Below, piece by piece: positions 15,345 to 47,377 of a DNA stretch of 64,000 nucleotides (its first letter is position 1; each line of letters starts with the position of its first letter). This stretch comes from Streptomyces europaeiscabiei (GTDB lineage: Bacteria > Actinomycetota > Actinomycetes > Streptomycetales > Streptomycetaceae). The DNA is taken from assembly GCF_036346855.1 (NCBI RefSeq), contig NZ_CP107841.1, forward strand, positions 3,042,001-3,106,000, written 5' to 3'. The notes below the pieces were generated by a model that ran no database searches, had not been told where the DNA came from, and saw only the letters and a list, made by a program, of their open reading frames with translations. The position numbers were made by a program, and so were the translations under genes.

Positions 15345-18203
15345 TCACTCGTCGTCATCCCCGTCATCGAAATCGAAGGTCAGCTGCCCCCGCAGCTCCC
15401 CGTCTGGCGGAGCCGCGGGCTGGGGCTGCGTCGGATCTACGGAGTCATCGATCTCGTGCGGCAGGGCATAGTCGTCCGCCAACCGCGCGAGGTGCAGGAT
15501 GAGGGGCATGCCCAGGCCATCGCGGGCCTCTCGGTAGTCCTCGCTGAAACGCTGCTGGTGCACGAACGCCGCCCAGGCTTCTGCATCGTCGCCTGGCTGG
15601 AGACAGGCGACCGTGAATTCGAGAAGATCCGGGTTCCAGGCGTTCGCCGTCGGCCGGTGTGCGCTGTTGCCCGACGGGTTGGTGTGCGGCGTCAGCTTCG
15701 CGTCATCGTTGGTGAGCTTCGTCTGGGTACTGGACTTGCCGACCGTGCTGTAGAAGACGCGGCCCGGATCGCCCTGTACGCCGGGCTTCCACAACCCCAT
15801 CGCAAAGCCCCCTCGCTGCTGGCCCTCCAGCTCAGGTTTGAGTTCCTCCCGCTCCGCCCACCACTGCGCCGTTTCGTCCCTGGTGCCATCGGCGACCCGG
15901 ACGACTCGCAATTGCTTGCCGTAGAGTCCGATCCGCTGCGTCGGCCCTCCGTCGAGACCGAGGCGATCCTGCTCCAGTCCGTCGTTCTTCAGCCACATCC
16001 AGCGCTTCCGCAGGTCCTGGGCATGTGCCAGTACGAGCGTCGGGGTGCTGCGCAAGCTCGACAGCGTCTGCTTGATGAAGGCCGCCATGAGCGCCGCCTG
16101 GTCGGCGCTGGTCCTCTTTGCCTCAACGCGTCCGGTCAACGCCTTGAGGAGTTCCGGATACGGAACCCATCCGTGCATGTCCGCCGACCTGCCGAGGACG
16201 CACTTCGCGCCCGGTCGGATGAGAATCGCGATCGGCGTGAACTGCTGCCTGCCCGTGGGCCCGTCGTGGCGGCGCTCCACGAGATGGAAGGCCACCTGGT
16301 TCAGGCCAACGGGGATGAGGTCGCCGAGAGTGTGCTGCGGCAGCAACCGCATACCGGTTTGGCGCATACCGTCTGACCAGGCCGATGCAGCACGCATCCG
16401 CGCGTCCTCCATGGCCTGCTCCTGCTTTTCAGCGTCGGAGTCCAAGGGACGGATGAACTGGGTCACCAGGCTCGCGTCGGCGCAGCCGAGACGGATCGCG
16501 TACTTCGGGTCGCTGCGCCGCCGGGCATGTTGGAAGGCGTCCTGGCCGTCGAGTTCCACGATGGCCAACCGCATGCCCGGAACGGTCGCGCGCAGGCTGT
16601 TCATGGCTTCCGCCACCTGGGTCCGGCGGTCCGCGATGGCCTCGTCGTGCTCCTTGCCCCTGCAGGGCACGCGATCACCACCCAGTGGGCCACCCAGCGA
16701 GCCCAGTCGCCGGGCGTGCAGCCGAACCGTCAGCTCCTCCGACTCCCAGACCCACGTGTCGGCTGCCTCCTCCCGCCGGAGCCCGGCGAGACCCAGTCCA
16801 GCCTCCGCGGCAGCGACGATCTGATCACGCATGATGTCCGACTGATAGAGAACGAGCGTCGTGAGATCCTCACCCTCCAAAGCCTCGGCCAGCCGGGCGC
16901 GGAGCACCTGGGCGTTGTGCGCCGAGAAGAGTTCTCGCTGGTCAAGAATCGCGGCGAGATCCTCGGGCGTCTGCTCCTTCTTGGGAATGGGCGGCAACTT
17001 CTTCAACTGCTTCTTTGGCGGTCGAGCGTACGAGCTGCGCGTGAGTGCCGGAATGGGCACGAACTCCGGGGCGATCGCCTGTTCCGCCCACTCGATGAGC
17101 CTCCGTCGTTCGCTGGGCATCAGGCCCGTGCCGATGGTGTGCTTACCCATGACCGCGTGATGCCCGACGGCGATCCGGATGCCGTCCCGGCCGTGGATCC
17201 AGTGGTCGGCCTCCTTGACCAGCCGGTCCGGAGAGGGCAGCGCGTCAAGAGCGGTGATCTGGGTGAGCATTCCCTCCGGTCCGCCCTGTCGCCACTCGGT
17301 CGTGCCGTTCCTCCAGTCCAGCATGGCGACCGCGAAGCGCTGCGGGGCAGGGCCGTCGAGCACAAGTGAGGCGTCCGGCAGCAGGTAGGCCGACACGCCC
17401 TTGCCATAAGGAATGAACACCTTGCCGCTCACGAATCGACGGACACCGGCACTCAGGTGGACCCGCGGAACGGGCGAGAACGGCACGGTACGTACGGTGA
17501 CCCGGATGGTCGCGGCGTAGTACGCCGGCTTTCCGTCGCCTCCTCCGCGACGCTTGGGCACGTACTCGATGAGCTCGGACATCAGCTCGGCGCCGCCGCT
17601 GCCCGCTCCGCGGGAGCCGCCGAGACCCGCCACTTGGCGGAAGGTGAGTTGCTTCCCGTTGTGCTCGTACGGCGCCAGGCAGGTGATCCTGGCTGCGAGG
17701 ACGTCGGGAAGGAGCCGGTACACGTGGGCTGAGGGGACCGCGGTCTGGCGTGGGGTATCCCGTAGTTCGAGCAGATCAACCATGCCCTGCTGCCAACTGA
17801 GGGCGGACGTGTCCAGATCCCGGAAGCAGTCCATCAGCAGCCCCGTCGTCTCGGGGTCGTCCGGGTTCCTCTGGAGGCTCTTGAGCCAGGTGGCGACGTA
17901 GAGATTGGTCACCGCGATCGGGTACGGACCCGTGCAGTACAACCAGGGGTTCGCCGAGCCGAACCGGGCCGTTGAGTCGACCGTGACGATGTCCGGGGCG
18001 GTGGCGCGCAGCAGCTGGTTGATGCGCTTCGTCGGCACTCGCCGGCGTCGCTCGGCCTGCCGCTCGTCCAACCCGTCGCGGTGCAGGCGCAGGACGGGTT
18101 CCTCCCAGTGCTCGGGGAGGGCGAGCGTGTGCATCGGGACCGTGAACGGTCCCCGAGCCGGGTCAGGCATGTAGGCGGCGGCCCGGAGGCACTGGTATTC
18201 CAC
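15345..18203 (-). CDS. pPIWI-RE family Argonaute/PIWI-like protein
   Basis: 952 residues. The GTG at 18203 is preceded by AAGGAGA. The architecture fits the pPIWI-RE family described by Burroughs, Iyer and Aravind: an N-terminal X-type region, a MID-like middle (about 480-600) and a C-terminal RNase H-fold PIWI domain. The family is named for conserved R and E residues. Candidates here are E862 in DLLEFTV and R885 in HQQRFSED, followed by PLILHLARLADDYAL; this assignment is inferred. Such proteins are proposed to use RNA or DNA guides against invading nucleic acid. It is the last gene of a four-gene leftward operon with the DinG helicase (59-bp gap) and REase, which is the published core gene set. 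Its tail is acidic (FDFDDGDDDE). Confidence 0.82.
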   Translation of the reverse strand: MEYQCLRAAAYMPDPARGPFTVPMHTLALPEHWEEPVLRLHRDGLDERQAERRRRVPTKRINQLLRATAPDIVTVDSTARFGSANPWLYCTGPYPIAVTNLYVATWLKSLQRNPDDPETTGLLMDCFRDLDTSALSWQQGMVDLLELRDTPRQTAVPSAHVYRLLPDVLAARITCLAPYEHNGKQLTFRQVAGLGGSRGAGSGGAELMSELIEYVPKRRGGGDGKPAYYAATIRVTVRTVPFSPVPRVHLSAGVRRFVSGKVFIPYGKGVSAYLLPDASLVLDGPAPQRFAVAMLDWRNGTTEWRQGGPEGMLTQITALDALPSPDRLVKEADHWIHGRDGIRIAVGHHAVMGKHTIGTGLMPSERRRLIEWAEQAIAPEFVPIPALTRSSYARPPKKQLKKLPPIPKKEQTPEDLAAILDQRELFSAHNAQVLRARLAEALEGEDLTTLVLYQSDIMRDQIVAAAEAGLGLAGLRREEAADTWVWESEELTVRLHARRLGSLGGPLGGDRVPCRGKEHDEAIADRRTQVAEAMNSLRATVPGMRLAIVELDGQDAFQHARRRSDPKYAIRLGCADASLVTQFIRPLDSDAEKQEQAMEDARMRAASAWSDGMRQTGMRLLPQHTLGDLIPVGLNQVAFHLVERRHDGPTGRQQFTPIAILIRPGAKCVLGRSADMHGWVPYPELLKALTGRVEAKRTSADQAALMAAFIKQTLSSLRSTPTLVLAHAQDLRKRWMWLKNDGLEQDRLGLDGGPTQRIGLYGKQLRVVRVADGTRDETAQWWAEREELKPELEGQQRGGFAMGLWKPGVQGDPGRVFYSTVGKSSTQTKLTNDDAKLTPHTNPSGNSAHRPTANAWNPDLLEFTVACLQPGDDAEAWAAFVHQQRFSEDYREARDGLGMPLILHLARLADDYALPHEIDDSVDPTQPQPAAPPDGELRGQLTFDFDDGDDDE

Positions 18204-18262
18204 GGTGCTGGTTCTCCTTGGAGGCGAAGAGGTCGTGTGGTCTCGAATGTGCCGACGCGCCG

Positions 18263-21200
18263 TCAGCCCATGTCCGCAAGGGCGCGGTAGAGCGGTTCGT
18301 ACAGCTCGCGGACCAGCGACTTGTCGATCGGGGGAGGCTCGGGATCGGCCGCGCCGTCTGCGGCGAAGTAGGGGGCGAGGACTTCGCGCATACTCGCCAG
18401 AAGACTCGTGTCGGGCGTATCCATGGCCTGGAACCCGGCTTCGCGCGGCGAGAACGCCGCGTCGACGAAGACCACCCTGGCCGGCACGCCGCCGCGTACG
18501 AGTCGACCGATGACCTGCCACATGACGACGAGTTGGTCCCAGGTGAACGCCACCTTCTCGTCGTCCCGCAGGCTCGACCAGGCGAGTTTGCGGGTCAGGT
18601 AACGGTTCCATTGACGGCGGGCACGGCTGCGGAAGGCGACGGCGGCTCGGTCGGGTGTGGCCTCGGCGAGCGCGCCTTGCCAGAACGTGCCGTCGATGTC
18701 GCGGAGTTGGCGTACGGCCCAGTCGTTGATGGACTGGATGGCGAGCGAGATGTCGTCGGGGCGCGGGTGGGGGCGGGCCAGGAAGTACACGGTGCCGATG
18801 GCGGCCTTGCCCCCACGCAGCACGATGTTGTGCCCGCGCTCCACCGCGAGGAGCGGGGCGACGAGGAGGTCGCCGCCGACGGAGGGAAACGACTTGACGT
18901 CCCCGCGCGGCAGGGTGCGCGCGGCATTGTCCTCCGGCAGCCGCGTCCAGGCGGTGTCCGCGTCCGCGTCGTCGGACACGAGCTGGGTGACACGTCCGTT
19001 CCACTCGGGGATCTGGTTGAGGTATTCGGCCGCCCTGCGTGCCTCGTCGTAGCTACCGACGAGGAGGAGGATGCGGCGTCGCTCCGGATCGTCGATCTCG
19101 TCCAGTTCGGCGTCCAGCATGCTCACCGAGTCGGGCAGGCTGCGGTCGGGCACAGCCAGCTGGTGCAGCATGTGCAGCAGGACCTGCGGCCGCTCCTCAG
19201 GGTCGCAGCCGGACAAGCGCAACGGTTTCGGCTGGTCGCCTCCGGGCCAGTACAGGAACTCCTTGCGGAACTCGCTGCCCAGCACAGCCTCGACCTCCTC
19301 GTCGCGGGGTCGCAGTACGGCCCCCACGTCGGTGTGCACGTGGTACCTGCTGGAGGTGCCTGCCCAGCTCGTGGCGGACATCAGGAGGACGTGCGGTCCG
19401 GGGCGGCCGTCCACGGCGCACAGGTCGCCCAGCCGCATGAGCAGCTCACGGCCGACGCCGTTGCAGTGGAAGAAGCGGAGTTCGCCACTGCGGTCGCCAT
19501 CTCGCTCGCGGTCGTCGTGGCGGAACTGGAAGCCGAGGACATTGCCCATGGGCGACTCGGGGATGACCGCCTCATAGTCCTTCGGAGGCCTCCTGGAGAG
19601 CACGTTGGAGGCGCTCTCCAGGTTGAGTGCGGCTTCGACGCGCGGCCACAGCGTGGTCATGAAGTCGAGGCGGCTGTGCAGAGCGGACAGGATCAGCGTG
19701 AACTCGAAGCGCCGGGCCTGGAGGTCGATATCGGCGAGTACGCCGCAGTCGTCCGAGACGACGTCGGTGAGGGCCTCGCGGAGCCGTTCGCGGGTTCGGG
19801 CTCCCTGAGGCGCGTGCAGGAGCTCCAGGGTGAGGTGGACGAAGGTGTTGACCAGGGGAGTCACCTCATCGTCTCCCGTACCGCTCTGCTGCTCGTGCAA
19901 CGGATCGTCCCTGAACCGTCCGAGTGCGACGTCCAGGCTCCGGGCCGCCGCAGGAGGGCGCTCACCCTCATTCCGGCCGGGAAACCAGCTGTCGAGGAGC
20001 AGACTGTGCAGGGTGAAGGCGCTGAAGTAGTCCGTGCTGATCCAGCGCCTGAGGCCGTCGTCCTTGACGAGTAGCGAGTAGAGGCGGTCGGTGGCGGCGC
20101 TGACCGTGTTGACGGCGTTGGTCCAGTCGTCGACGTCACGGGCGGACAGCTGGAGCCTTCCGTCACGGGCCATCTGCTGGAACTTGTGCACCGCGACCTC
20201 GTCGAACCAGGAGTTCGGGGCTTTGCCCACGAGGGTGCTGGCGGGCGCGAAGGCCGTGTCGAGTTGCATCTGCACCCGGTCCGCCTCGTCCACGATGATG
20301 AGATCGCTCATCCGGCAGGCGAGCTCGAGATACCTCAGCTGGTCGTCGTGCTGGTGCTGCGGCACGGAGCTGTGCACCAGGCCGGCCGGCGTGGCGACCC
20401 ACACCTGGGCGTCGACCAGGTCGCGGGCCCCGCGATGTCGGGGACAGCGGTTCCACAGCGGGCACAGCCGCCGCTGCGGCTTCGGGCGGCGGGAGTCACG
20501 CACCGCCGGGCTCTCGTCGTCGAGCAGCGGATCGCCGTCAGCAGGCTCGACCTCGGGCACGGTGAACAGGGTCAGGCACGGCGCCTCACGGATGCCGAGG
20601 GGTCGGCGCGCCTCCAGGCCGCGCAGAACGTCGACCGGGCATGCACTGCTCAGATAGGCGAAGCCCGCATGGTCGTGCCCCAGCATGGTGGCCGCACCGG
20701 CCGTGGCGGTGCGGCGGTGCAGCCGGCTGATGTTGCGCTCGCGCGTGGAGTGCCCGAGGATCGGCGCGGCCCGCACGCCCAGTCGGTCGAACTGCTCGAC
20801 GACAGCAAGGGTTTCCGCCACGTCGCCGACGACAATGGTGACGCGACGGGGTGTCTGGGTCACGACGTGGTACGTCAGGATGTCGCGGATCGTGGACTTG
20901 CCGGCGCCGACCATGCCCACCAGGTGCAGCAGCCGGTCGACCGTCAGCCGCCCCTTCTCCGTGAAGCTCTCGGCTTCCTCGTCGCGCACGAGCAGTTTGA
21001 CGCGCCGAAGCCGCCCGGCCCAGTCATTGCGGGGACCATGCGGTGCCGCCGCCTCTGTGGTGTCCATCGTGTCGGCGGCCTTTTCGAGTTCCGCCCACGT
21101 GACGTCTACCGGCTCTCCCCGTCCTGCGGGCGGCGCGTCGAGAGCGTGTGCTCGGGGCAGGGTGTCCGACAGCAGTTCCTCCTCGAACACCACGGAGTGG

Positions 21201-21700
21201 GTGCGGTCCTGTACGCGGAAGGTGTACTCACCCGCCTCGGCGAAGGGAACGGAGCGCGTCGAGAAGTCGGGCGCGGTGCTGAGCAAATTTTCGAAGATCT
21301 CGAAGCGGCGCGCGGCGCGTGCGGGCTCGCGGCGACGCGGTACGTCATCGAGTCCGTCGAGGTCGTATCCCCGCAGCTGCTGAGGAACTGTCAGATAGTC
21401 GGCCAGTGCCTCGCGCCAGGCATGGCGCCGACGCAGGTCCCACAGGTAGTGGCGGGCCCTCAGGACACGCAGGCGCTGTTCGTCTGTGCGCACGTCGCCG
21501 AAGGCTTCGCTGTACGGGTAGCCGCCCAGCAGCGGCCACACGTCGGCGGCAGTACGGGTCGGCGTCACGTTCTGAAGCAGGTACAGGCCCAGTTCGATGT
21601 CGAGGAGGTCGCCGGGACGGAAACTGCCGAGGTTCGCCGGCCATACCTCGGTGAGCTCCTTCGGCGAGCAGCGTCGGTGCCATCCACTGCGGTCACGCAT
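18263..21700 (-). CDS. DinG-type Fe-S superfamily 2 helicase of the pPIWI-RE system
   Basis: 1145 residues. The ATG at 21700 follows GAAGGAGG and overlaps the end of the upstream nuclease gene by 8 bp. A roughly 240-residue N-terminal extension (the Z-type region of pPIWI-RE helicases, by context) precedes Walker A GMVGAGKST (about 262-270). Four cysteines at about 354, 375, 413 and 419 (SSACP, APCL, LCPLWNRC) sit where DinG/XPD helicases bind a 4Fe-4S cluster. Walker B DEAD is at 471-474 and motif VI is QVIGRLVR near residue 1060. It probably unwinds or remodels the nucleic acid that the PIWI protein targets. Confidence 0.85.
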   Translation of the reverse strand: MRDRSGWHRRCSPKELTEVWPANLGSFRPGDLLDIELGLYLLQNVTPTRTAADVWPLLGGYPYSEAFGDVRTDEQRLRVLRARHYLWDLRRRHAWREALADYLTVPQQLRGYDLDGLDDVPRRREPARAARRFEIFENLLSTAPDFSTRSVPFAEAGEYTFRVQDRTHSVVFEEELLSDTLPRAHALDAPPAGRGEPVDVTWAELEKAADTMDTTEAAAPHGPRNDWAGRLRRVKLLVRDEEAESFTEKGRLTVDRLLHLVGMVGAGKSTIRDILTYHVVTQTPRRVTIVVGDVAETLAVVEQFDRLGVRAAPILGHSTRERNISRLHRRTATAGAATMLGHDHAGFAYLSSACPVDVLRGLEARRPLGIREAPCLTLFTVPEVEPADGDPLLDDESPAVRDSRRPKPQRRLCPLWNRCPRHRGARDLVDAQVWVATPAGLVHSSVPQHQHDDQLRYLELACRMSDLIIVDEADRVQMQLDTAFAPASTLVGKAPNSWFDEVAVHKFQQMARDGRLQLSARDVDDWTNAVNTVSAATDRLYSLLVKDDGLRRWISTDYFSAFTLHSLLLDSWFPGRNEGERPPAAARSLDVALGRFRDDPLHEQQSGTGDDEVTPLVNTFVHLTLELLHAPQGARTRERLREALTDVVSDDCGVLADIDLQARRFEFTLILSALHSRLDFMTTLWPRVEAALNLESASNVLSRRPPKDYEAVIPESPMGNVLGFQFRHDDRERDGDRSGELRFFHCNGVGRELLMRLGDLCAVDGRPGPHVLLMSATSWAGTSSRYHVHTDVGAVLRPRDEEVEAVLGSEFRKEFLYWPGGDQPKPLRLSGCDPEERPQVLLHMLHQLAVPDRSLPDSVSMLDAELDEIDDPERRRILLLVGSYDEARRAAEYLNQIPEWNGRVTQLVSDDADADTAWTRLPEDNAARTLPRGDVKSFPSVGGDLLVAPLLAVERGHNIVLRGGKAAIGTVYFLARPHPRPDDISLAIQSINDWAVRQLRDIDGTFWQGALAEATPDRAAVAFRSRARRQWNRYLTRKLAWSSLRDDEKVAFTWDQLVVMWQVIGRLVRGGVPARVVFVDAAFSPREAGFQAMDTPDTSLLASMREVLAPYFAADGAADPEPPPIDKSLVRELYEPLYRALADMG

Positions 21701-22871
21701 GGCGGCCTCCTTCGGTACGCGGGGGTTCTGGCTCCTGTCGGCTCGGGGCGGGGAGTTCGCGGCCCACCAGCCGCAGAAACGCCTGGTCGTCCAGGAGAGT
21801 GACCCGCCCGGCCATGTCGTCGGGCAAGTTGCGGCGGAACTGCCGCCCGTACGCCTCGTTCTCGCGGAATCGGTACCGAGGTACGACGAGGAAGGCACGC
21901 TCGTACGGCGGGTCACCCCGGAAGGGAGTGGTCGTGCGCGCCAGGAGTGCGGGGTTGACGCGGTCCTTCACATCCACGGCCCAGTGCCGCCGCCCGGGCA
22001 GAGGGACGCGAAGGTCGTATGCGTCGTAGTTCGGCCACATCTCGGCCGTGATCCCGAACTTCTTCTTCAGTGCTGCTTCCAGATCCGTCTCGGCGAGTCC
22101 GGGGCTGGTGACGAACATGCGGAGGGGACGGCTGAGTTGGAAGACTCCCCCCTTGTAGGGGCGCAGTGGAGTGCCATCGCCCCCTGCCCCGTCACGGCGG
22201 CAACGGTCCAGTTCGCAGCGGTGTCCGCCGACGAGCAGCGGCACCATGAGGCAGTGGCAGCGCGCGCACTGCCGATACGCACCCTCACGCAGATAGGACG
22301 CGGGAGCAGGTTCGTAGCAGCGCTTGATGACGCTGTGCAGCAGCATCCCGCATTCCGGATCGCCGCCGAGCAGCGCCAGTTCGGCACCGGTGAGCACGGG
22401 CCTAGTGGTGAGAAGTGCGCGGAAGGCGGTGTAGGTGCCGGGTGACTTGGCTGCGCGGCAGATCGCGAGGGCTTCCAGGATCCGTTCGTTCTCGAACAGT
22501 TCGGCGGCGGGATCGGCCGCGCTCACCTCCCACTCCAGGCACAACTGGTGCGGCAGTCTGGTCTCGGGATCGACCAGCAGAGCCCTACCCGAGCGACCCT
22601 CGTCGGGCAGGGTCAACGGCCATTCCTCAAGCGGCCGTTCGCATGCCCACCGAACCATTTCCGGCACACTGCCGGGCGGTTCCTCACTCCGCCGCAGGCA
22701 GTGCAGCACGAGGCGGTTGTAGGCGTTCTGCACCTTGGCCGGGTAGACCGAGTTGGGCACGGTCCGCAGTCGGGACAGGCAGGCGAGGGCGCTGGCGACC
22801 AGGCGCAACAGCGTCTCGTCGGTGGTCCCGGCGCCTTCGGGAATCGCGGGCAGCAGGTCCGTCGTCGTCAT
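21693..22871 (-). CDS. PD-(D/E)xK restriction-type nuclease of the pPIWI-RE system
   Basis: 392 residues. The start ATG at 22871 overlaps the previous stop (ATGA), with GGAAGAGG upstream. The C-terminal half has a restriction-endonuclease-like core: D286 in YDLRVPLPG and D300-V-K302 in AVDVKD. A cysteine-rich zinc-ribbon-like block sits in the middle (QCARCHC ... GGHRCELDRCR). The helical N-terminal half corresponds to the Y-type region of this operon's known REase partner. Presumably it cleaves DNA exposed by the DinG helicase under guidance of the PIWI protein; this is inference from conserved gene neighbourhood. Confidence 0.78.
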   Translation of the reverse strand: MTTTDLLPAIPEGAGTTDETLLRLVASALACLSRLRTVPNSVYPAKVQNAYNRLVLHCLRRSEEPPGSVPEMVRWACERPLEEWPLTLPDEGRSGRALLVDPETRLPHQLCLEWEVSAADPAAELFENERILEALAICRAAKSPGTYTAFRALLTTRPVLTGAELALLGGDPECGMLLHSVIKRCYEPAPASYLREGAYRQCARCHCLMVPLLVGGHRCELDRCRRDGAGGDGTPLRPYKGGVFQLSRPLRMFVTSPGLAETDLEAALKKKFGITAEMWPNYDAYDLRVPLPGRRHWAVDVKDRVNPALLARTTTPFRGDPPYERAFLVVPRYRFRENEAYGRQFRRNLPDDMAGRVTLLDDQAFLRLVGRELPAPSRQEPEPPRTEGGRHA

Positions 22872-24505
22872 GCCTCTTCCTCTCCAGCAACGGCCGGGCC
22901 TGGCCCGGCACTCGGACACCACTGGGATACCGGACAGGACTGACAATGCGGTCCGGGCCAGGCGTCCCACGCCTCGTCATCTCGCCAGGGAGCGCTGTAC
23001 CGCCGCAGCACGGACCGCGCCTTGGCCTGCTGCTCGGGGTCGGTCGAATCGATGACATGGGGATCGGAGCCGTCCGGCCGGAGGATCTCCACCTCGACGC
23101 GCGATCCGCCCGGGTCACCGCCCAGCGCACCCTGTGCCAGCAGCGTGACGGCCAGGGCGAGTTGGGGATACGTCTCCAGGAGATCCGCCTGGTTCCGTCG
23201 CCGCTTCCTCGTCGTCTTGAGTTCTCGCCACACCCAGGAGCCGTCCTCCTGGTAGAGCAGGTCGGGCTTGGCGACGACCACGGCCTGTGCGGCGGTGTCG
23301 TGGACAACCCGCAGGGCCTCCGGCTCGACCCGCTGGACAAGTCCCCGGTCCTGGAAGGGGCAGGCGTCGACGTGGTGGAGCAACATGTCCCGGCCGGTCG
23401 CGGCGTCCTCGTCAGAGACCCGCCACCGCCCCTCCGTCCAGTTCTCGCCTTCGGTAGGCATGTCCGCGACGGCGCAGGGCGGCCACCCTTCACGCCGGTG
23501 CAACTTCTCGATCCAGCCGTGCACCGCCTGGCCGAGTTTGGCGGCGCTGCCGTACTCGTCGGACCTGGGCAGGTGTAACGCACGCAGGAACGCCTGTGCG
23601 GGGCAGGCCGCGTGGTAGCGGAGGTCGCTGACGGACACCTTCCGCAGCGGTGCGACGCGCGACGGCACTCCAAGGACCCCGGGCCTGCGCGGCACGGCCG
23701 GGCAGGCCGTGAACTGCTTGCAGTCCACGCAGGAGGAGCCGGGCGTCGGCGCCCCACCCGCCACGACACGGGCGACGTGCGAGTGCCCGTGCTCGGCGTA
23801 GTACGCCTCGGCGTCCTCGGCGGTACCGTCGAACTGCACCCGGGGCCGACCGTCGGCCAGCCCGACCTCGACGACGCGAACGCGCTCGGGCCGGGCGAAG
23901 GGGCCGAGCGGCTGGAAGGCCCGCGACCACTTGAGGGGCCAGGCCGCCGGTCGCCCGTGGACCGCCACGTACACGGCGATGGCGATCTCGCCGGGCTCGG
24001 ATCCCTTGGCCTGGCCGTGCCGCAGCCGCCGGTACTCGCGCAGCCGTCCGTCGGCGGACTCGTACCGCCGCCACCAGGCGTACAGCTCCCAGAACTTGCC
24101 GTTCTCGCGCTGCGCCACCCAGTAGGCACGGACAGGGCGCAGCTTCTTGTCGCTTTCCGCAGCCAACGCCTGTATGTACGACCGCAGGGCGTGCTCGGCA
24201 TAGGTGAGATGTCCGGGGTGGAGGGCGGGCGTCCTGGAGCGCAGCCCCTCCAGGGCCTGGTCGAGTGTCTCCTCGTGGAACTCAACCCGGTCGACGGCGT
24301 CCATGACCGGCCCGAGGGTGAAGGTTTCGAGCTCCGGCTTCGGCAGCCGCAGGCGCTGGGCCGGCCACAGCCCCGGTCGGGCCTTTGCGGCGGCGTGCGA
24401 GGGGCAGGTGTGCTCCTCGTCTCCGCCGGTACCGGGTCCGACCCGCAGAAGACTGTCGTCCCCCGTGAGCCAGTGCGGCCTGCGCCATGCCATGTCGTGG
24501 CCCAT
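22868..24505 (-). CDS. RecB/Cas4-like PD-(D/E)xK nuclease with Cys clusters
   Basis: 545 residues from the ATG at 24505 (GGGGGAGG very close upstream); an ATG four codons in, at 24493, has a more usual spacing. The catalytic set is D415 (KPDLLY) and E428-L-K430 (WRELKTT), the RecB-family motif. A first cysteine in YHAACPAQAFL and a C-terminal CQSCPVSQWCP cluster resemble the Fe-S staple of Cas4/AddB nucleases. A separate CVDCKQFTAC cluster lies near residue 260. It is the first gene of the leftward operon, overlapping the REase gene by 4 bp. It is not part of the three-gene core known to me, so it may be an actinobacterial addition. Confidence 0.75.
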   Translation of the reverse strand: MGHDMAWRRPHWLTGDDSLLRVGPGTGGDEEHTCPSHAAAKARPGLWPAQRLRLPKPELETFTLGPVMDAVDRVEFHEETLDQALEGLRSRTPALHPGHLTYAEHALRSYIQALAAESDKKLRPVRAYWVAQRENGKFWELYAWWRRYESADGRLREYRRLRHGQAKGSEPGEIAIAVYVAVHGRPAAWPLKWSRAFQPLGPFARPERVRVVEVGLADGRPRVQFDGTAEDAEAYYAEHGHSHVARVVAGGAPTPGSSCVDCKQFTACPAVPRRPGVLGVPSRVAPLRKVSVSDLRYHAACPAQAFLRALHLPRSDEYGSAAKLGQAVHGWIEKLHRREGWPPCAVADMPTEGENWTEGRWRVSDEDAATGRDMLLHHVDACPFQDRGLVQRVEPEALRVVHDTAAQAVVVAKPDLLYQEDGSWVWRELKTTRKRRRNQADLLETYPQLALAVTLLAQGALGGDPGGSRVEVEILRPDGSDPHVIDSTDPEQQAKARSVLRRYSAPWRDDEAWDAWPGPHCQSCPVSQWCPSAGPGPAVAGEEEA

Positions 24506-24576
24506 TACCTCCCCCTTCGAGACAGACGTCGCCCAGACGCCACCCCTCGGCGTGGCCTGGGGCGTCGATGTCTTCG

Positions 24577-24648
24577 ACCGTAGCATGGAATATTGGAACT
24601 CCTTGGAACTCCTTGGCATAGATTGGCTCGTGCGCTAAGGTGCCCCTC
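24577..24648. promoter_or_regulatory. Divergent promoter region with TGGAA repeats
   Basis: Between the two operons, TGGAA occurs at 24586, 24594 and 24604, and TGGCA at 24614, spaced 8, 10 and 10 bp. Rightward, TTGGCA (24613-24618) and TAAGGT (24636-24641) are 17 bp apart and end 7 bp before the ATG at 24649, which suggests a leaderless or very short leader. Leftward, a possible -10 TACGGT (24582-24577) lies just beyond the repeats. A regulator bound to the repeats would cover both promoters. A similar repeat is at 47343-47377. Confidence 0.5.
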
Positions 24649-25542
24649 ATGGCGGCATCACTGGAGGAGCTCGAGCAGCGCCTGTCCCATCTGCGCACCG
24701 AGTTGCGCGGCGCCGTACGCGCCCGGGACAAGGCCGAAACCACGCGCATCCGTCGCGCTCTGCGCGAGGCGGAGGCCGCGTGGGAGCAGGCTCTCGATGC
24801 AGAGGCCGGGCCGGATGCCGAAGCCGGGCCGGACACCGAGGCACTCGCGCCGGCGGCCGAGACACGGACGCCACCCACGACGACAGGCGAACCACGCCGC
24901 CAGGAGCGCCCTGCGCACGGCTCCATCCCGGTCCGCGAACAGGTGCACCAAGCGCTCACTCTGCTGGGCGCTCCCGCGTCCCCGAAACTCATCTCGTCCG
25001 CGTACGAGGCGTTCTTCACCGAGCCGCTCGTCGCCGCCAAACTCGCGTCGCTGCGCCGGGACGAGGAACGCTCCTTCACGGCACAGGGTTATGCCCGCCC
25101 GTACTACATCTGCGCGGCCCTGACCCACGACCGCCTCGTCCCCGCCCGCGGGCTTCTCGCTCTGTCCACCTGGCCCGTGGAGCGACGGATCATCACCCCG
25201 CTCAGCCCCCGGACCGACTTCCTCACCCACGCGGTCGGCACCGCCGAGCAGATCCGGCGACTGGCCACAGCAGGGCATCCGGCCCCGGACGCGGCCTGGC
25301 GGCTGCTGCGCCGGTTCGCCCTCACGATCCCGGGCGCCTGTGATTCCGCGGCCCCGGAACCCGACCCCGCCCGTGTGATCGCCGCCGCCCGCGCCGAAGC
25401 GGCCGTCCACCAGCAGGAGGACGACCAACAGCGGCGGGCGGCGGCGGAGCGCGTCCGTTCTCAACTCACCGACACACAAAAGCTGTTTGGTGCAGCACCG
25501 CTGCGTGATGCCCTGCGTGACGCGAGCGGCAGCATGCACTGA
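24649..25542 (+). CDS. Unknown protein with N-terminal coiled coil, winged-helix-like core
   Basis: 297 residues. The ATG at 24649 is preceded by TAAGGTG; a GTG three codons earlier is less likely. The first 55 residues form a charged coiled coil (LEELEQRLSHLRTELRGAVRARDK). An Ala/Pro-rich linker follows, then a segment (about 95-170) that reads like a winged helix (REQVHQALTLLGAPASPKLISSAYEAFF ... KLASLRRDEER). No catalytic motif is visible. It is first in a rightward operon of four genes that overlap or nearly abut. A DNA-binding sensor or regulator role is a guess from context only. Confidence 0.65.
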   Translation: MAASLEELEQRLSHLRTELRGAVRARDKAETTRIRRALREAEAAWEQALDAEAGPDAEAGPDTEALAPAAETRTPPTTTGEPRRQERPAHGSIPVREQVHQALTLLGAPASPKLISSAYEAFFTEPLVAAKLASLRRDEERSFTAQGYARPYYICAALTHDRLVPARGLLALSTWPVERRIITPLSPRTDFLTHAVGTAEQIRRLATAGHPAPDAAWRLLRRFALTIPGACDSAAPEPDPARVIAAARAEAAVHQQEDDQQRRAAAERVRSQLTDTQKLFGAAPLRDALRDASGSMH

Positions 25543-25617
25543 CCTCTCCGGCGGGTGAGAGACCACGGTCGTCTCACCCGCCGGCACACCTCCGAAGACG
25601 TCCCCGAAGCAGAGACG

Positions 25618-26736
25618 ATGCCCTCTCAGCAGTCCGAACCTCCCGACGACAGACTCGCGCGGCTACGCGGACCGCGCCCTCCCCAGCCGTACACCGCCCG
25701 CAAGATCACCGCCCTGACCGCCAACCCCGCCTGTGCCCGCCGCGCCGTCCTCGACGCGGCCGGCGTGGACAAGGCGCTGCTCGCCCAACAGGTCGGATAC
25801 GAGCCGCGCTTCGGCCAGTCACCCTTCGCCCTCGCCCGCGAACAGGCGTTCCACAGCCTCGTGAAGTGGGGCGGCTACGCCGAGCTCATCCGGCTGCTGC
25901 GCGAGCAGCTCACCGTCCCCGTGGCAGAGGCCCATGTCACCGACCTCAACGAGGTGGCGGGCAACACGGCCCTGCACGTGCGCGAGCGTGAGACCCGCCG
26001 CCTCATCGCGCACGTGGCCTCCGGCCAGGACGTACGGCTCATCCTCGACCGCCCCGTGCTCACCCTCGAAGTCGCCGGTCAGACGGCGTACTTGGAACCG
26101 GACGCGCTCACCCACCGCATCGACGGGAAGTTCCACGTCGTCCTGATCCGCTCGTTCGCGGCGATCGACGGCCAGGCCAACCCGACCGCCGTCGCCGAGG
26201 CGGCCAAGCAGGCCGCTGTCTACGTCCTCGCCCTGCGCCGCGCCTTCGACACCGCCGGCCTGCCCACCGAGCAGATCTCCCACAAGTTCCTGCTCGTCTG
26301 CCCCAAGGACTTCTCCAACCGCCCCTACGGCCGCCTGATCGACCTCCGGCAGGAACTCGACGCCCTCCAGTTCCAGCTCACTCGGCTGCGGCGCGCCGAG
26401 GACCTCGCGGCCCGACTCCCCGAGACGGCGACCCTGGACACGACCCGCAGCACGGACGAACTCGCCTCCTCCATAGAGGCGTTGGACGCGTCGTACACGC
26501 CCTCCTGCCTGTCCTTCTGCGAGATGGCGCGCTACTGCCGCGACGAGGCCGACGGATGCGCCTCGCCGGCCCGCCTGGGCAGTGGCGTACGCAACAACCT
26601 GCCGGGCATCGACTCCACCCGCACCGCGCTCGACTACCTGGACGGCGTCTCCGCCCCGGGAGAGGCCGAGGCGGAAGCCGCCGACCTGCTGCGCGATGCC
26701 GCTCGGCTGCGCCGACTCCGCCGGGGGGCCGCATGA
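25618..26736 (+). CDS. Cas4-like PD-(D/E)xK protein with altered ExK motif
   Basis: 372 residues; ATG at 25618 with AGAG upstream. The layout matches Cas4/RecB-like nucleases: an early cysteine (NPACARRAVLD), D162 in LEPDAL, a beta strand that should carry E-x-K, Q-x3-Y (KQAAVYVL), and a C-terminal Fe-S-like cysteine cluster (CLSFCEMARYC ... CASP). The ExK strand reads VVLIRSF (174-180), so the glutamate is Leu176 and the lysine Arg178. Either the active site is rearranged or the protein binds DNA without cutting. It overlaps the next gene by 4 bp (ATGA). Confidence 0.7.
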   Translation: MPSQQSEPPDDRLARLRGPRPPQPYTARKITALTANPACARRAVLDAAGVDKALLAQQVGYEPRFGQSPFALAREQAFHSLVKWGGYAELIRLLREQLTVPVAEAHVTDLNEVAGNTALHVRERETRRLIAHVASGQDVRLILDRPVLTLEVAGQTAYLEPDALTHRIDGKFHVVLIRSFAAIDGQANPTAVAEAAKQAAVYVLALRRAFDTAGLPTEQISHKFLLVCPKDFSNRPYGRLIDLRQELDALQFQLTRLRRAEDLAARLPETATLDTTRSTDELASSIEALDASYTPSCLSFCEMARYCRDEADGCASPARLGSGVRNNLPGIDSTRTALDYLDGVSAPGEAEAEAADLLRDAARLRRLRRGAA

Positions 26737-28250
26737 GTGTCCTGTCCACCGTCGCCGCGCTCACGGCGTCCCGCACCGGCCGTGCCGAGCCGCTGACGAC
26801 CGTCCGCCACCAGCACCTGGACGAGAAGCCGTTCGTCCTGGTGCCGCTCACCCTCGCCGGCGAGGCGTGCGCGCCACTGGCCGCGCTCGCGGGCACGGAC
26901 CCCGAGCACCCGACCCTCCTCACCGTCCGCCAGCCGCGCAACCGCGCCGAACGCTTCCGGTTCGCCGAGCGCCTCGCCGCACTCCTCCTCGCGTACATCG
27001 ACGGGTGCCGGACGGATACGGAGCCCTACACCGTCGGCCGCGGCAAGGAGAAGGAGGAACGCCTGCGCTCCCTGCGGGCCCCACAGCTCCTCGTGCCGAA
27101 CGGCGAGGGCATCGCGTACGTGCGCCTGCTCGGCCGTCTGACCAGACTGCGCGCCACCGAGGGGCCGTACGCGGTCGACCCGTCCGTGCCCGCCCTCGGC
27201 AAGTGGCTGACCTGGTACGCGGAGCTGGCCGAGTTCCCGAACTCCGGTGTGCTCCTCGCGATGACCCGGCTGCTCGCCGCGCACTGGGTCACGGGCCAGA
27301 GCCCTTCCGAGGACTCCCACCTCGCGTCCCAGCTCGCCTGGCTCGATCCACCGGAGGGCAGCGACGGCGCGCGTGCGGCGCGGGAGGCGGAGGACCCCTC
27401 CGTGTGGCCGCCGGCCGGTCCGACCACGGACCCGGTCTTCGACCGGACCCTCCACGAGCTGATGACGCGCTACGACGAGGCGTCCGACGAGCGCGGACGC
27501 GAGGCGGTCGGCCGCCAGATCGACCGTGAGCTGAGCGGCCAGATGCTGCCCACCTGGCGGCTCATGTGGCGCGGCGTGGAGCTGCTCCGCGATCTGCCGG
27601 AGGGTGCCCACGTCCCCGACCGCTGGGCCCTCGACCGCCGCTGGTTCTCCGAGTACGCCGAGTACCTGGACGCCGACGGCCGCCCGCAGGCCCGCCGCGA
27701 CCAGGCCGTCAGAGCTGCCCGCCGCCTGGCCCGGCTGGAGGACGCGGTCACCCGCTACGAGGCGGAGCGCGCCTACGACGATCCGCTGGTGATGGCGGAG
27801 TACGAGCTGACCGGCGAGGCGTTCACGGGAACGGTGACGGCCAGGGACGAGGACCGCTACGTCCCCGGCGACCGTCCCGGCTCCCAGGTCTGGCGCCCGA
27901 TGATCACCCTCCGCACCGGCACCGACACCCGCGTCGGTCTCGCGGTCGGCACGGAGGCGAAGTCCCCCGCCCGGCCCGGCCAAGGAGCCCGGATCCTCGA
28001 AGTACGGCAGGAGGACGACGGCGGCCACACCGTGGTGCTCCAGCTCAAGGGCGGCTTCGCGAACAAGCGCAAGCCGCCGGCACCGGCCGGCACCCTCGCG
28101 GAGACCGGCGAGGAGCTGACGTACACCACGCTCAACCCCACGGCCATGCCGTCCGCCCTGCCCGACGAGGAGAACACCCCCTGGACCCACGGCGGTCCGC
28201 CCCAGCCGTACGAGCCCACAAACGAGGACGCAGAGGAGACCTGGGAGTGA
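26733..28250 (+). CDS. Unknown 505-residue protein of the divergent cassette
   Basis: Starts at the ATG overlapping the previous stop; its own stop overlaps the next start (GTGA). It is mostly helical in the first 380 residues (RRLARLEDAVTRYEAERA). A beta-rich C-terminal third follows (GEAFTGTVTARDEDRYVPG, PMITLRTGTDTRVGLAVGTEAKS, HTVVLQLKGGF), which reads like a small barrel or OB-type fold. I recognise no family and no nuclease or ATPase motif. Translational coupling on both sides suggests it acts with the Cas4-like protein and the SF1 helicase, for example as a bridging or nucleic-acid-loading subunit. Confidence 0.65.
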   Translation: MSVLSTVAALTASRTGRAEPLTTVRHQHLDEKPFVLVPLTLAGEACAPLAALAGTDPEHPTLLTVRQPRNRAERFRFAERLAALLLAYIDGCRTDTEPYTVGRGKEKEERLRSLRAPQLLVPNGEGIAYVRLLGRLTRLRATEGPYAVDPSVPALGKWLTWYAELAEFPNSGVLLAMTRLLAAHWVTGQSPSEDSHLASQLAWLDPPEGSDGARAAREAEDPSVWPPAGPTTDPVFDRTLHELMTRYDEASDERGREAVGRQIDRELSGQMLPTWRLMWRGVELLRDLPEGAHVPDRWALDRRWFSEYAEYLDADGRPQARRDQAVRAARRLARLEDAVTRYEAERAYDDPLVMAEYELTGEAFTGTVTARDEDRYVPGDRPGSQVWRPMITLRTGTDTRVGLAVGTEAKSPARPGQGARILEVRQEDDGGHTVVLQLKGGFANKRKPPAPAGTLAETGEELTYTTLNPTAMPSALPDEENTPWTHGGPPQPYEPTNEDAEETWE

Positions 28251-29611
28251 CCGCCCTCCTTCCCGACACCGGGGAGCCCGAAGCCCTCACCCCCGGCGAA
28301 CGCGCGGACCGGGCGGTCGCGGGGATCCTGACCAGCCTCGACACCGCGCCCGGCCGGGGCGTCGTCGTGGACTCGCCTCCCGGAGCCGGGAAGTCCACTC
28401 TGGTGGTGAAGGCCACCGGGCACCTGACGTCCGCGGGCCACCAGCTCATGGTCGTCGCGCAGACCAACGAGCAGGTCGACGACCTCGTGGACCGCATCGC
28501 GCAGAAGTATCCCGGCCTGGCGCTCGGCCGCCTCCACGCCGGCGGCCACATCCTCCCGCCCCGCGTCACCCGGCACCCCAACGTCACCGGGAGCAACCAG
28601 GTGACGGACCTGCGCGACCTGCCCGTCGTGGTGTCCACCGCGAAGAAGTGGTCGTTCGTCACCCCGGACAAGTGCGCGCCGTGGCGGTGGGCCATCGTCG
28701 ACGAGGCGTACCAGATGCGCTCGGACGGACTCCTGGCAACGGCCCCGCTGTTCGCCCAGGACCACTCGCAGGTCCTCTTCGTCGGCGACCCCGGCCAGCT
28801 CGACCCCTTCGCCACCGTGGAGAGCGACCGCTGGCACGGCCTGACCTGGGACCCCCTGCGCAACGCGGTCGACGTCACCCTCGCCCACAACCCCGACCTC
28901 CTACGCCACCAACTCCCCGTCTCCTGGCGCCTCCCGGAAACGGCGGCACCCTTGGTCGAGCAGGCCTTCTACCCCTTCTACCGGTTCGTCCCCGGCACGA
29001 CGGCACCGGAGCGCGTGCTGTCGTACGCCAGCCTGTCCCACGGCCCCAGCCCGCTGGACGACGTCCTCGCCCGAGCCGCCGCCTCCGGCTGGGGCCACCT
29101 GGAACTCCCCGCCCGCCACACCCTCGACCAGGACCCGGAGGTGGCGGACGCCCTCGCGGCGACGGCTGCCCGGCTGCTGGAGCGCGGTGCGCTGGTCAAT
29201 GGGGAGCGGCTGACTGAGGCGCGCATAGCGATCGGCACGGCACGCACCGTGCAGGCCGACGCGGTCCGCGCCCGACTCGCCGATCGCGGTCTGACTGACA
29301 TCATCGTGGACACCGCCAACCGCCTCCAGGGCCGCGAGTTCGACGTCACCCTGGTCTGGCACCCGCTCTCCGGCCGCCAGGACGCCTCCGCCTTCCACCT
29401 GGAGACGGGCCGCCTGTGCGTCCTGCTGTCCCGACACCGCTTCGCCTGCATTGTGGTGGCCCGCGCTGGCATCCGCGACCTACTGGACCGGCATCCACGG
29501 AGCAGCCCGGTGTACCTGGATGTGCCGCCTAAGTTTCCGGATGGATGGCGGGCCCATCAGGTGGTCATGGGGTGGCTGGAGCGGGGGGAGCACCGGGTGC
29601 GGGCGGCTTGA
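28247..29611 (+). CDS. Dna2/UPF1-like superfamily 1 helicase
   Basis: 454 residues; the GTG start overlaps the previous stop. Walker A is SPPGAGKST (43-51), motif II DEAY (152-155), motif III GDPGQLDP, motif IV-like QLPVSWRLP, motif V NRLQGREFDVT and motif VI LCVLLSRHRF. This is the full SF1B signature set of Dna2/UPF1-type helicases, without accessory domains. Together with the Cas4-like protein two genes upstream it resembles a split Dna2 (nuclease plus helicase). It is the last gene of the operon; the next gene starts about 190 bp on. Confidence 0.82.
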   Translation: MTALLPDTGEPEALTPGERADRAVAGILTSLDTAPGRGVVVDSPPGAGKSTLVVKATGHLTSAGHQLMVVAQTNEQVDDLVDRIAQKYPGLALGRLHAGGHILPPRVTRHPNVTGSNQVTDLRDLPVVVSTAKKWSFVTPDKCAPWRWAIVDEAYQMRSDGLLATAPLFAQDHSQVLFVGDPGQLDPFATVESDRWHGLTWDPLRNAVDVTLAHNPDLLRHQLPVSWRLPETAAPLVEQAFYPFYRFVPGTTAPERVLSYASLSHGPSPLDDVLARAAASGWGHLELPARHTLDQDPEVADALAATAARLLERGALVNGERLTEARIAIGTARTVQADAVRARLADRGLTDIIVDTANRLQGREFDVTLVWHPLSGRQDASAFHLETGRLCVLLSRHRFACIVVARAGIRDLLDRHPRSSPVYLDVPPKFPDGWRAHQVVMGWLERGEHRVRAA

Positions 29612-29804: not shown

Positions 29805-32800
29805 ATGCACACCGATGAGGTCGAGCCTGGGGTTCGCCTGACCGGATTGGCCTCGGGGTCGGTTACCGTCGTGGCCGCCACGCCGGTCGGTGACGCTCTT
29901 CAAATTACGGTCCGCGACGACTCCGGACACCTGTTCGACCAGGTGCTCTTCCCCGAAGACCTCCCTGGGCTGCGGCGTGAAGCATCAAGCTCACGGTGGT
30001 CGTTCGACGCCGACCCTGCACAGTTCCGTCTTGCGGCTGAAGCACTACGCATGCGGCACGCGGGTCTGTCGGACCCGATGCTGGCCGTGGAAACCAGCGA
30101 CATCGACCCGCTACCCCACCAGATCCGCGCCGTCTACGGCACCCTGCTGGCCCAAGCCGGCTCCCTGCGCTTCCTGCTGGCAGATGATCCTGGCGCAGGC
30201 AAGACGATCATGGCGGGTCTCTATCTCAAAGAGCTGCTGCTGCGCGGAGACGTACAGCGGTGCCTGATCGTCGCCCCCGGTGGGCTGGTCGAGCAGTGGC
30301 AGACCGAACTCGCGGAGAAGTTCGGGATCGAGATGGCGATCTTGACACGCGATCTCGCCGAGGCCGACCGCGATGGCGACCCGTTCCGGCGCAACCCCAT
30401 GCTGATCGCGCGCATGGACCAGCTCGCCCGCAACGAAGAGTGGCAGACCATCCTCGCGGAGTCGGAATGGGACCTCATCGTCGTAGACGAGGCCCACCGT
30501 ATGAGCGCCTCCTGGTTCGGCAACGAACTTAAGCGCACCCGCCGCTACGAGCTCGGACAGCTGCTCGGCAGGATCACCCGACACTTCCTGCTGATGACCG
30601 CGACCCCTCACTCGGGGTCGGAAGCCAACTTCCAGACGTTCCTCGCGCTACTGGACCCCGATAGGTTCGCCGGGCAGTACCGCCAGGGCGTGCACTCCAC
30701 CGACACCACCGGACTGATGCGCCGGATGATCAAGGAGGACCTGCTCACCTTCGAGGGCAAGCCGCTATTCCCTGAGCGGGTAGCGGAGACCGTCGAGTAC
30801 ACGCTTTCCCCACCGGAGATGCGTCTGTACGAAGAGGTCACCGAGTACGTACGCACGGAGATGAACCGGGCCGAGCGAACCGACGGCAGACGACGCACCG
30901 TCGGCTTCGCGCTCACGGTCATGCAGCGACGCCTGGCGTCGAGCCCGGAGGCGATCTACCGGTCGATACGGCGCCGTGCCGCGCGCCTGCGCGCCCACCG
31001 TGAGCAGATCCTGGCGGGCCCGTTCGTTCCCCCACCCGAGACACTGTCGTTCGACCCGGACGATTTCGACTCCGACGAGTTGGGTGCCGCCGAGCTGGAG
31101 CAGCTGGAGAGCGAGGTCCTGGACGCCGCCACCGCCGCACGCACGGCAGCCGAGCTGGACGCCGAGCTCGCGGTCCTGGCACGTCTTGAAGAGATCGCTG
31201 AACAGGTCCGTACCTCGGGTGAGGATCGAAAGTGGCAGGAGTTGCGTTCCCTTGTCCTCAAGGCCCGCGAAGAGGGCCTGAGCAGTGACCGCCACGCCCC
31301 GCACAAGATCATTATCTTCACCGAGCACCGCGACACCCTCGACTACCTCGCAGGCCGGATCACCACCCTGCTGGGCGGCGATGCGGATGCCGTGTGCACC
31401 ATCCACGGCGGCACCGCGCGACAGGCTCGTCGGGAGACCCGAACCAAGTTCAGCAACGACCCTCGCTGCCACGTTCTGATCGCCACCGACGCCGCCGGCG
31501 AAGGACTGAACCTTCAGGCCGCGCACCTGATGGTCAACTATGACCTCCCCTGGAACCCCAACCGAATCGAGCAGCGCTTCGGACGTATCCACCGCATCGG
31601 CCAGCGCGAGGTCTGCCGCCTGTGGAACCTCGTGGCCTCCGAAACCAGGGAAGGTCAGGTCTTCCAGCGCCTCCTGACCAAGATCGAGCAGCAGCGTCGC
31701 GCCTACGGCGGCAAGGTCTTCGACGTCCTGGGAGAGAATGCCTTCGCGGACGAGCCGCTACGTGACCTGCTTATGCGAGCCATCCGCTACGGCGAGCAGC
31801 CCGAGGTCCGCGCCCACCTGGACCAGGTCATCGACAAGTCCGTAGCCGACGGCCTCCAGGAGCTGATCAAGGAACGCGCACTGGCCACCTCGGAGATCGG
31901 AACGGAGGAGCTGGCCGAGCTGCGCCGGCAGATGGATGAGGCCCGTGCCCGGCGCATGCAGCCCCATTTCGTGCAGGCCTTCGTCATGGAGTCCCTGCGT
32001 GCCCTGGGCGGGCGGGCCTCCAAGCGGGAGAAAGACCGATTCGAGCTGACCCAGGTGCCCGCCGTCCTACGCGAAGGTCGGCGTACCGTCAGCCCGCGCT
32101 ATGCACGCATCACCTTCGAGCCCTCAGCCGTGATCATGCCGGGCCGCCCGGACGCCGAGCTCATAGCGCCCGGTCATCCTCTGATGGACGCGATCATCAC
32201 CGAGATCCTGAACAGGTACGGCGACACGCTGACCCGTGGAGCGACCTTCCTGGACCGGACCGTCACCACTCCCCAGCTCGTGTTCGCCTTGCTGGAAGAG
32301 CTCTCGGACGGGCACGGCGCGGCAATCAGCAAGAGGTTCGAGTACGTCTCCGTGCTGCCCGACGGAACCGCAGAGCAGGCAGGCCCCGCTCCGTACCTCG
32401 ACCTGTCCCTGCCCACAGACCTGAACCTGGAGCAGCACACCGCGCTGACCCTTGCCATCAACTCCGAGCTGTCCTCGGCCTGGCTTGCCGACGGCGTTGA
32501 GAAGATCGCCCAGAGCTGGGCGATCCAGCACGGTCTGCCCGAGCACCGTGCCGACGTCGTCGCTCGCGTCGTCCCAGCTGTCGAGCGGACGCGCAAGCTT
32601 ATGCGTCAGCGGCTGCTGGCTCAGATGAACTACTGGGACGGCGAGTCGATCAAGCTCGCCGAGGCGCAGGCGGCAGGCAAGAAGATCCGTATCTCGCCGG
32701 CCACCGCACGCGATCGCGCCCGGTCGCTGGAGACCCGGCTCGAACGCCGTCAAGGCGAACTCGACCTCGAAATCCAGGTCAACGTGCACCCGCCGCAGAT

Positions 32801-33275: not shown

Positions 33276-33355
33276 CACACACGATCCACACGCCTTCATC
33301 CGCTCGAACGCCACCCGAGGCACAGTTCGAGCGCCTCGGAATCTAGATTGAGCAG

Positions 33356-47188: not shown

Positions 47189-47342
47189 GGCGTGAACTCC
47201 CGTGGAAGCGACGGCTGCGGAGCCAGCGGTCGGACAGACGTACGGAGGCAGCGCAGCGTGATGGTCACGGGCCGCACAGAAGCGTCGGCGTGACGTGTGG
47301 GGCGTGAGCTGGGGATGACCCTAGCCCAGACACCCACAAGAA

Positions 47343-47377
47343 TGGAAGTCATTGGAATTGTTTGGAAATCACTGGGA
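47343..47377. promoter_or_regulatory. TGGAA repeat array upstream of the Rad50-like operon
   Basis: TGGAA at 47343, 47353 and 47363, then TGGGA at 47373, exactly 10 bp apart. Read leftward they are TTCCA repeats upstream of a possible -10 TAGGGT (47324-47319). The same direct-repeat design occurs at 24586-24618 between the pPIWI-RE operons, so a common regulator is possible. Confidence 0.5.

Follow-up and report, generated by a model that had tools for sequence, protein, structure and literature searches.

RNA-guided cleavage of DNA has been reported for a PIWI-RE protein of Pseudomonas (PMC10991935). The closest described relatives of the locus analyzed here are the three-gene pPIWI-RE system, as far as the accessible part of its description goes (PMC3702460), and the Ppr system of the PADLOC library; all four Ppr families are also present in this locus, with REase, DinG and PIWI in the gene order given in the paper. 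The window, that is, the whole stretch of DNA analyzed (64,000 nucleotides; G000:C1:3042001-3106000), comes from a 10.95-Mb genome of Streptomyces europaeiscabiei. The first-pass annotation of the window described an eight-gene divergent cassette with a 143-bp control region, and all eight open reading frames, as well as the gap, are confirmed. Genes A to D are located on the minus strand and genes E to H on the plus strand, and the gap between D and E (24506-24648) measures exactly 143 bp, provided that E starts at the ATG at 24649. Among the matches listed from open-access titles and beginnings of abstracts (bioRxiv excluded), there is no description of this eight-gene form, hereinafter the octet.

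The left operon

Each of the genes A to D matches a PADLOC family, and the left half of the octet is therefore already known. Gene A (15345-18203) encodes a pPIWI-RE protein of 952 aa (PprPIWI, E = 1.5e-167) with the pPIWI_RE X, MID and RNaseH domains of Pfam. Gene B (18263-21700) encodes a DinG-like helicase of 1145 aa (PprDinG, E = 3e-253) in which cysteines 354, 375, 413 and 419 do not vary across the alignment (29 rows from octets and 54 others), and gene C (21693-22871) encodes an REase of 392 aa (PprRE, E = 6.5e-76) with matches to pPIWI_RE_Y and pPIWI_RE_REase. The order REase, DinG, PIWI within a minus-strand operon is that of pPIWI-RE systems, in agreement with the earlier recognition of this trio. 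The product of gene D (22868-24505), a PD-(D/E)XK nuclease of 545 aa (PprPDDEXK, E = 4.3e-104; Pfam PDDEXK_1), keeps its D...ExK motif in 29 of 29 octet rows together with the clustered cysteines. This nuclease had been taken for an addition to the known trio, a claim that we abandon: PADLOC 2.0.0 includes a family for D, and A-D are present at 52 of 74 pPIWI-RE places. Outside the octet, on the side of gene A, a 1239-aa protein (9204-12923, plus strand) shows just one short, weak PADLOC match, to PDC-M02A (E = 2.3e-06).

Distribution of the octet

The PF18156 domain scores over the cut-off in 72 of 392 Streptomyces genomes, a count that leaves out eight rows under the cut-off. The same genomes contain 74 pPIWI-RE places, with a second fragment in G649 and a 40-position fragment in G646:C50, both over the cut-off, omitted; the stretches examined do not extend beyond 12 kb upstream of C and are shorter in L128 and L129. 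Twelve of the places carry A-H, 40 carry A-D without E-H, and 22 carry fewer of A-D. The octet is found at 12 of the 13 loci where A is at least 64% identical to that of the window, and at none of the 61 others; identity of A among these 12 octets ranges from 65 to 99%, the window's own locus included. At the remaining locus of this clade, L101, A is 64% identical and A-D are present, with E-H missing; the next nearest A is 46% identical.

A scan of a species-level genome collection with the E alignment, seeded by two conserved peptides and thus missing diverged E, recovered 47 E loci, in 16 of which A-D are divergent from E-F-G-H. There are 23 Streptomyces and Kitasatospora loci with E at least 56% identical, and 16 of these are octets. 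In seven loci (L036, L041, L042 and L044-L047), none of A-D is found in the flanking stretch examined; PF18156 is present elsewhere in two of these seven genomes (L042 and L045), and in L036 a DUF6119 protein is encoded divergently to E. When both scans are combined and repeats are merged, 23 distinct genomes have all eight genes in an identical order and orientation, more than chance would give. The eight-gene form singled out in the first-pass annotation is thus a conserved unit, given that it accounts for 16 of the 47 E-bearing loci and, within one clade of pPIWI-RE, for all 13 loci but one.

Coupling and exchange of the two arms

Across the 23 octets, the distances of the left and right arms correlate at 0.95, a value to which shared descent contributes. 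By gene, the correlation is 0.99 for E and D and 0.98 for F, G and H mutually; because it also reaches 0.97 for D and F, the contrast between E-with-D and F-G-H is slight. The nearest relative of the window for all genes is L111 (distances of 0.02-0.04). Beyond L111, the A-E genes of L026 (0.03-0.07) are nearer than those of L031 (0.11-0.22), whereas the F-H genes of L031 (0.04-0.05) are nearer than those of L026 (0.08-0.13). These distances suggest that genes were once exchanged, with the break lying between E and F; the arms appear to be exchangeable yet kept together.

Such exchange of F-H separately from A-E is among the observations expected if Ppr and E-F-G-H were independent modules, the latter a separate defense or repair operon, that share an island and a promoter gap and are held together by linkage and shared descent. 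The same explanation, the chief rival of a joined system, which we consider possible if rather doubtful, would account for the E-F-G-H genes found without A-D in other families, for the 61-62 of 74 pPIWI-RE places without E-H, and for the Hma genes located directly after H (29805-39627). However, 12 of 13 loci of the clade keep the octet despite PIWI proteins that differ by up to 34%, and the motif of F is altered in every octet row. The best explanation of the locus, to which we attach somewhat less than even confidence, is that in one Streptomyces clade the known guided Ppr system has been joined by a recruited E-F-G-H motor, the own nuclease center of which is off.

The right operon: E, G and H

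The genes of the right operon, E (24649-25542), F (25618-26736), G (26733-28250) and H (28247-29611), all on the plus strand, encode proteins of 297, 372, 505 and 454 aa, respectively. Overlapping starts had been noted for this operon; overlaps of 4 bp indeed join F to G and G to H, but a spacer of 75 bp separates E from F if F starts at 25618 (25555 is an alternative start). Only H resembles a Pfam, NCBIfam or PADLOC family, with AAA_11 (E = 3.1e-11) and AAA_30 over the cut-off and AAA_12 just under it, and among solved structures it matches SMUBP-2 (E = 0.00081). H has an SF1 helicase core of the UPF1/IGHMBP2 type that is expected of a Dna2-type enzyme. The other three proteins are under every curated cut-off in Pfam and NCBIfam and have no PADLOC match up to an E-value of 0.1. 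Directly after H, the genes HmaA, HmaB and HmaC (29805-39627, plus strand) constitute a second known defense system in the island.

The predicted model of E (pLDDT 87.9, pTM 0.67) consists of a helical hairpin and a second domain, possibly a winged helix. Comparison of E with solved-structure sequences returned only de novo proteins and short helical matches, and in the fold search only the N-terminal hairpin was matched; this hairpin is a common shape, and therefore no family is named for E.

DEDD 3'-5' exonucleases carry a D-x-E motif in the first strand. By fold comparison, the predicted model of G (pLDDT 90.5, pTM 0.89) may be exonuclease-like at approximately 31-346, followed at approximately 322-471 by a putative stalk and barrel similar to those of Sen1/Senataxin. 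The resemblance to exonucleases is confined to structure: no E-value below 0.001 was obtained with Foldseek, G has no match among solved-structure sequences, and D-x-E is absent from its first strand, the consensus around strand 34-40 being VLVPLxLAGEA. Taken together, G and H have the appearance of a UPF1-like helicase split over two proteins.

F, a probable Fe-S protein with an altered nuclease motif

The description of F as Cas4-like in the first-pass annotation stands with respect to the motifs and to four cysteines that are invariant across 42 aligned sequences; it does not extend to Pfam, in which the F of the window has no match, or to the active site, where ExK of this F reads L-I-R. 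PDDEXK_1 is matched by two of the 42 alignment members at E <= 0.01 (best 0.0045), and comparison of F with solved-structure sequences yielded only two matches, one to a de novo protein and a weak one of viral origin. On the evidence of its motifs and cysteines, F is a probable Fe-S nuclease-type protein of the PD-(D/E)XK type. A duplication of D as the origin of F was considered and set aside: hhalign aligns the motifs and cysteines of the two proteins with P of 0.024, compared with 0.087-0.62 for five unrelated pairs, which is suggestive only.

All 31 octet rows of F show an altered D...ExK motif, with the cysteines kept; of the 44 rows from outside the octets, 39 have an intact motif. An altered motif is also present in five loci without adjoining A-D (L036, L042, L044, L046 and L047) and is therefore a trait of the clade rather than strictly of the pairing; two of these changes outside the octets may be mild (in L047, K to R alone), and the F of L045 (Kitasatospora sp. 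A2-31) keeps D...ExK. The earlier image of a machine with two helicase-nuclease arms is doubtful in view of this alteration in every octet row, as opposed to D, which is intact in 29 of 29. Because the catalytic D...ExK is altered in the octet F, F-G-H is not classed as a Dna2 nuclease; the octet F-G-H may work like a Dna2 motor.

A TTGG array at the putative E promoter

Gap alignment and a pattern scan identified, in the D-E gap, an array of TTGG units with 10-bp spacing (24593, 24603, 24613 and 24623; 24593-24626, plus strand). The third unit, TTGGCA (24613-24618), occupies the place expected for a -35 box, and a -10-like TAAGGT (24636-24641, plus strand) is located 17 bp after it and 7 bp before the ATG at 24649; the putative E promoter appears leaderless-like. 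In the alignment of D-E gaps (24 rows, 23 distinct), three TTGG units 10 bp apart are found in every octet, and a fourth in many. With one mismatch allowed, the array pattern has 4 matches in the window against 0.12 expected; the strict pattern occurs just twice in the genome, each time within the window, with the second occurrence at 47352, and the backwards control nowhere.

Array scores were compared with those of 40 first-order shuffled samples per locus, and a locus was counted when no sample reached the observed score; the consensus is derived from octets, and related loci are not independent. All 17 octets are counted on this basis, as are 8 of the 12 SbcCD-linked loci, 17 of the 22 remaining loci with E-F-G-H and 3 of the 4 in which E is present but F-G-H is incomplete. 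Of the 9 F-G-H loci that have no E, none is counted, judged from the shuffle mean and maximum, at or near which all their scores lie. The simplest reading of this distribution is that E probably binds the TTGG array, and we propose that E is a regulator of the E-F-G-H module.

A second copy of the array (47342-47375, plus strand) is located upstream of an SMC-like gene (44762-47188, minus strand) with no E beside it, and a similar array precedes an SMC-like gene in the octet genome G304. The copy in the window can be read either as the relic of a lost E-F-G-H copy or as a second target of E. The array scores at SMC-like genes, for which there are no shuffled controls, are 21 of 22 for the window's own, 19 for G304, 16 for L175 and 12-14 for the others. 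In L046 and L050, the SMC-like gene and E are divergently oriented; as a regular partner of E-F-G-H the gene is not supported, with no E within approximately 1.5 kb in 20 relatives. Nearby, the gene at 47416-49368 (minus strand) matches PADLOC 'Orf5' (E = 7e-161) and HEC-06. A genome-wide regulon is likewise not supported, given that in 150 genomes of the genus the strict pattern occurs at 19 places versus 17 for the backwards control (12 and 5 by strand). Eight of the strict places in these genomes start with TTGG, of which six are in octet genomes (G000 twice, G123, G304, G330 and G429) and two in G408 and G418.

E-F-G-H outside the octet

Among the matches listed, relatives of G are encoded in 48 of 296 genomes of the class and in 27 of 28 genomes of the same genus, most at 46-52% identity. 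The genome of the window has two G genes, the octet copy and a core copy (G000:C1:3898384-3899931; 46% identity). All six core loci that were compared in Streptomyces share the neighbors of F-G-H and contain no E match, and the octet F-G-H is a paralog of this core actinobacterial chromosomal operon. A search of 50,697 phage records found no match to G, and among 72,556 plasmid records G matches 3, including one of 11.85 Mb; for E, partial matches occur in 9 plasmid records. The first-pass annotation would have counted against a joint cassette a right operon found mostly without pPIWI-RE genes or as a housekeeping locus, and this is partly what we observe: outside the clade F-G-H was found with no A-D in its vicinity, and a core copy has the same neighbors at each of the six core loci compared. 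E-F-G-H reads as a chromosomal or portable module that has been joined to one pPIWI-RE clade.

Sen1 and Senataxin act on R-loops. The similarity of G to these proteins, together with the paralogy of F-G-H to a core operon that has a copy in 27 of 28 same-genus genomes among the matches listed, could suggest that F-G-H protects the host, removing R-loops or repairing self-damage from the pPIWI-RE system; loss of cutting by F would fit. We regard such a role as highly unlikely, given that most pPIWI-RE loci manage without E-H and that the repeated SbcD/SbcC-like and Wadjet neighbors suggest DNA-end processing.

In particular, E-F-G-H is located beside an SbcD-like gene in 12 loci (L019, L023, L024, L053, L055, L057, L058, L060, L061, L067, L070 and L071), with a full SbcC-like partner in 11, and the combination is possibly a six-gene DNA-processing unit. 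JetA-like Wadjet genes adjoin E-F-G-H in L019, L042, L057, L058, L060, L061 and L071; thus, six of the 12 SbcD/SbcC-linked loci also adjoin such genes. For the relatives, genes were called, clustered and labeled as Wadjet or SbcCD by script, with library checks of L061 (PADLOC and Pfam), L019 (PADLOC) and L045 only. In the F-G-H tree of 60 loci, the 17 octets form one fully supported clade with L036, L042 and L044-L047, and SbcCD-linked loci are scattered over several places; L036, L042 and L044 nest among the octets, which therefore are not exclusive in this clade.

Several other loci deserve mention. In L045 (15001-19636), H is followed by Cas3e and Cas8e of a type I-E CRISPR system. E relatives (34-35% identity) without F-G-H, each with an E-type array, are found in L068 (10001-10780) and L069 (8421-9245), after a short gene labeled by eye as HU-like and before a gene for a protein of about 700 aa. 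In G101:C18, the SbcCD-linked E-F-G-H locus L024 is located approximately 19 kb from a distant pPIWI-RE locus (L129, A 26% identical).

RecBCD-like enzymes have been reported to feed some Argonautes. By analogy, the right arm together with D might make or trim the guides of pPIWI-RE, an explanation that draws on the presence of a helicase and a nuclease-like protein on either side of the gap and on the resemblance of the core and SbcCD-linked relatives to end-processing enzymes. It is unlikely, however, because 61-62 of the 74 sampled pPIWI-RE loci have no E-H and because the one PIWI-RE protein studied cut DNA with the help of RNA guides (PMC10991935); a DNA end-processor would not yield such guides directly. 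As a broader, tentative reading, E-F-G-H would be an actinobacterial, portable DNA-end-processing module, composed of a three-piece Dna2-like motor and an E-array switch, that is joined to mutually unrelated systems for cutting DNA (pPIWI-RE, Wadjet and SbcD/SbcC-like pairs) and that in the pPIWI-RE version has lost its nuclease center, with the partner nucleases cutting; a distinct helicase complex would then drive the guided system.

Proposed working of the joined system

If the Ppr system and the recruited motor act jointly, pPIWI-RE with its guide would locate the invading nucleic acid, DinG would open the hybrid, and C and D, with their motifs kept, would cut. F-G-H, by likeness a Dna2/UPF1-like helicase-nuclease divided over three proteins, would form a complex in which the G-H motor unwinds from the break while F, no longer a cutting subunit, carries the cluster and holds the strand; D, C and A would then degrade the unwound strands. 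E would be the module's own regulator, acting on the TTGG array that overlaps its promoter in the shared gap.

This joined system is supported by the retention of the octet in all loci of the clade but one, the correlation of the arms, the intact motif of D as opposed to the altered one of F, the fit of G with H, the array tied to E and the E-F-G-H copies that adjoin SbcD/SbcC-like and Wadjet genes elsewhere. Against it stand the altered F motif beyond the octets, L101 without E-H, the partly different histories of F-H and A-E, the lack of a significant profile relation of F to D and of F and G to fused RecB/RNase_H_2/helicase proteins, and the purely structural exonuclease-like match of G. 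Of its elements, the recurrence of the gene set, the paralogy of F-G-H, the states of the motifs and the distribution of the array are shown, and the folds of E and F, the catalytic state, recognition of the array by E, assembly into a complex and a role in defense are proposed. If the two operons act together, a little-studied branch of Argonautes would gain a dedicated DNA motor that would help to explain destruction of the target. A chromosomal repair-like operon would then have been captured by several defense systems, with a traceable change in the nuclease center. The E-array pair makes this reading testable, as the window holds the only two occurrences of the strict pattern in the genome.

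Comparison with known systems

Fused RecB-like/RNase_H_2/AAA helicases (PF13482) resemble F-G-H in the order of parts, and H is aligned by the profile with an E-value of 9.8e-13. A broken-up version of such a fusion was considered for F-G-H: H aligns but F (P = 0.14) and G (P = 0.66) do not, in a comparison with a profile of only six sequences, each with a P-loop; PF13482 has no match anywhere in the genome of the window. Wadjet and SbcCD are neighbors of E-F-G-H relatives, and neither is part of the octet. The Dna2/UPF1-like proteins (Sen1, Senataxin and SMUBP-2) are single polypeptides, whereas F-G-H is encoded by three genes, with a putative exonuclease-like domain in G and, in octets, the altered motif of F. 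Finally, compared with pPIWI-RE systems, for which the accessible part of the description (PMC3702460) gives standalone and three-gene forms only, the octet adds the divergent genes E-F-G-H.
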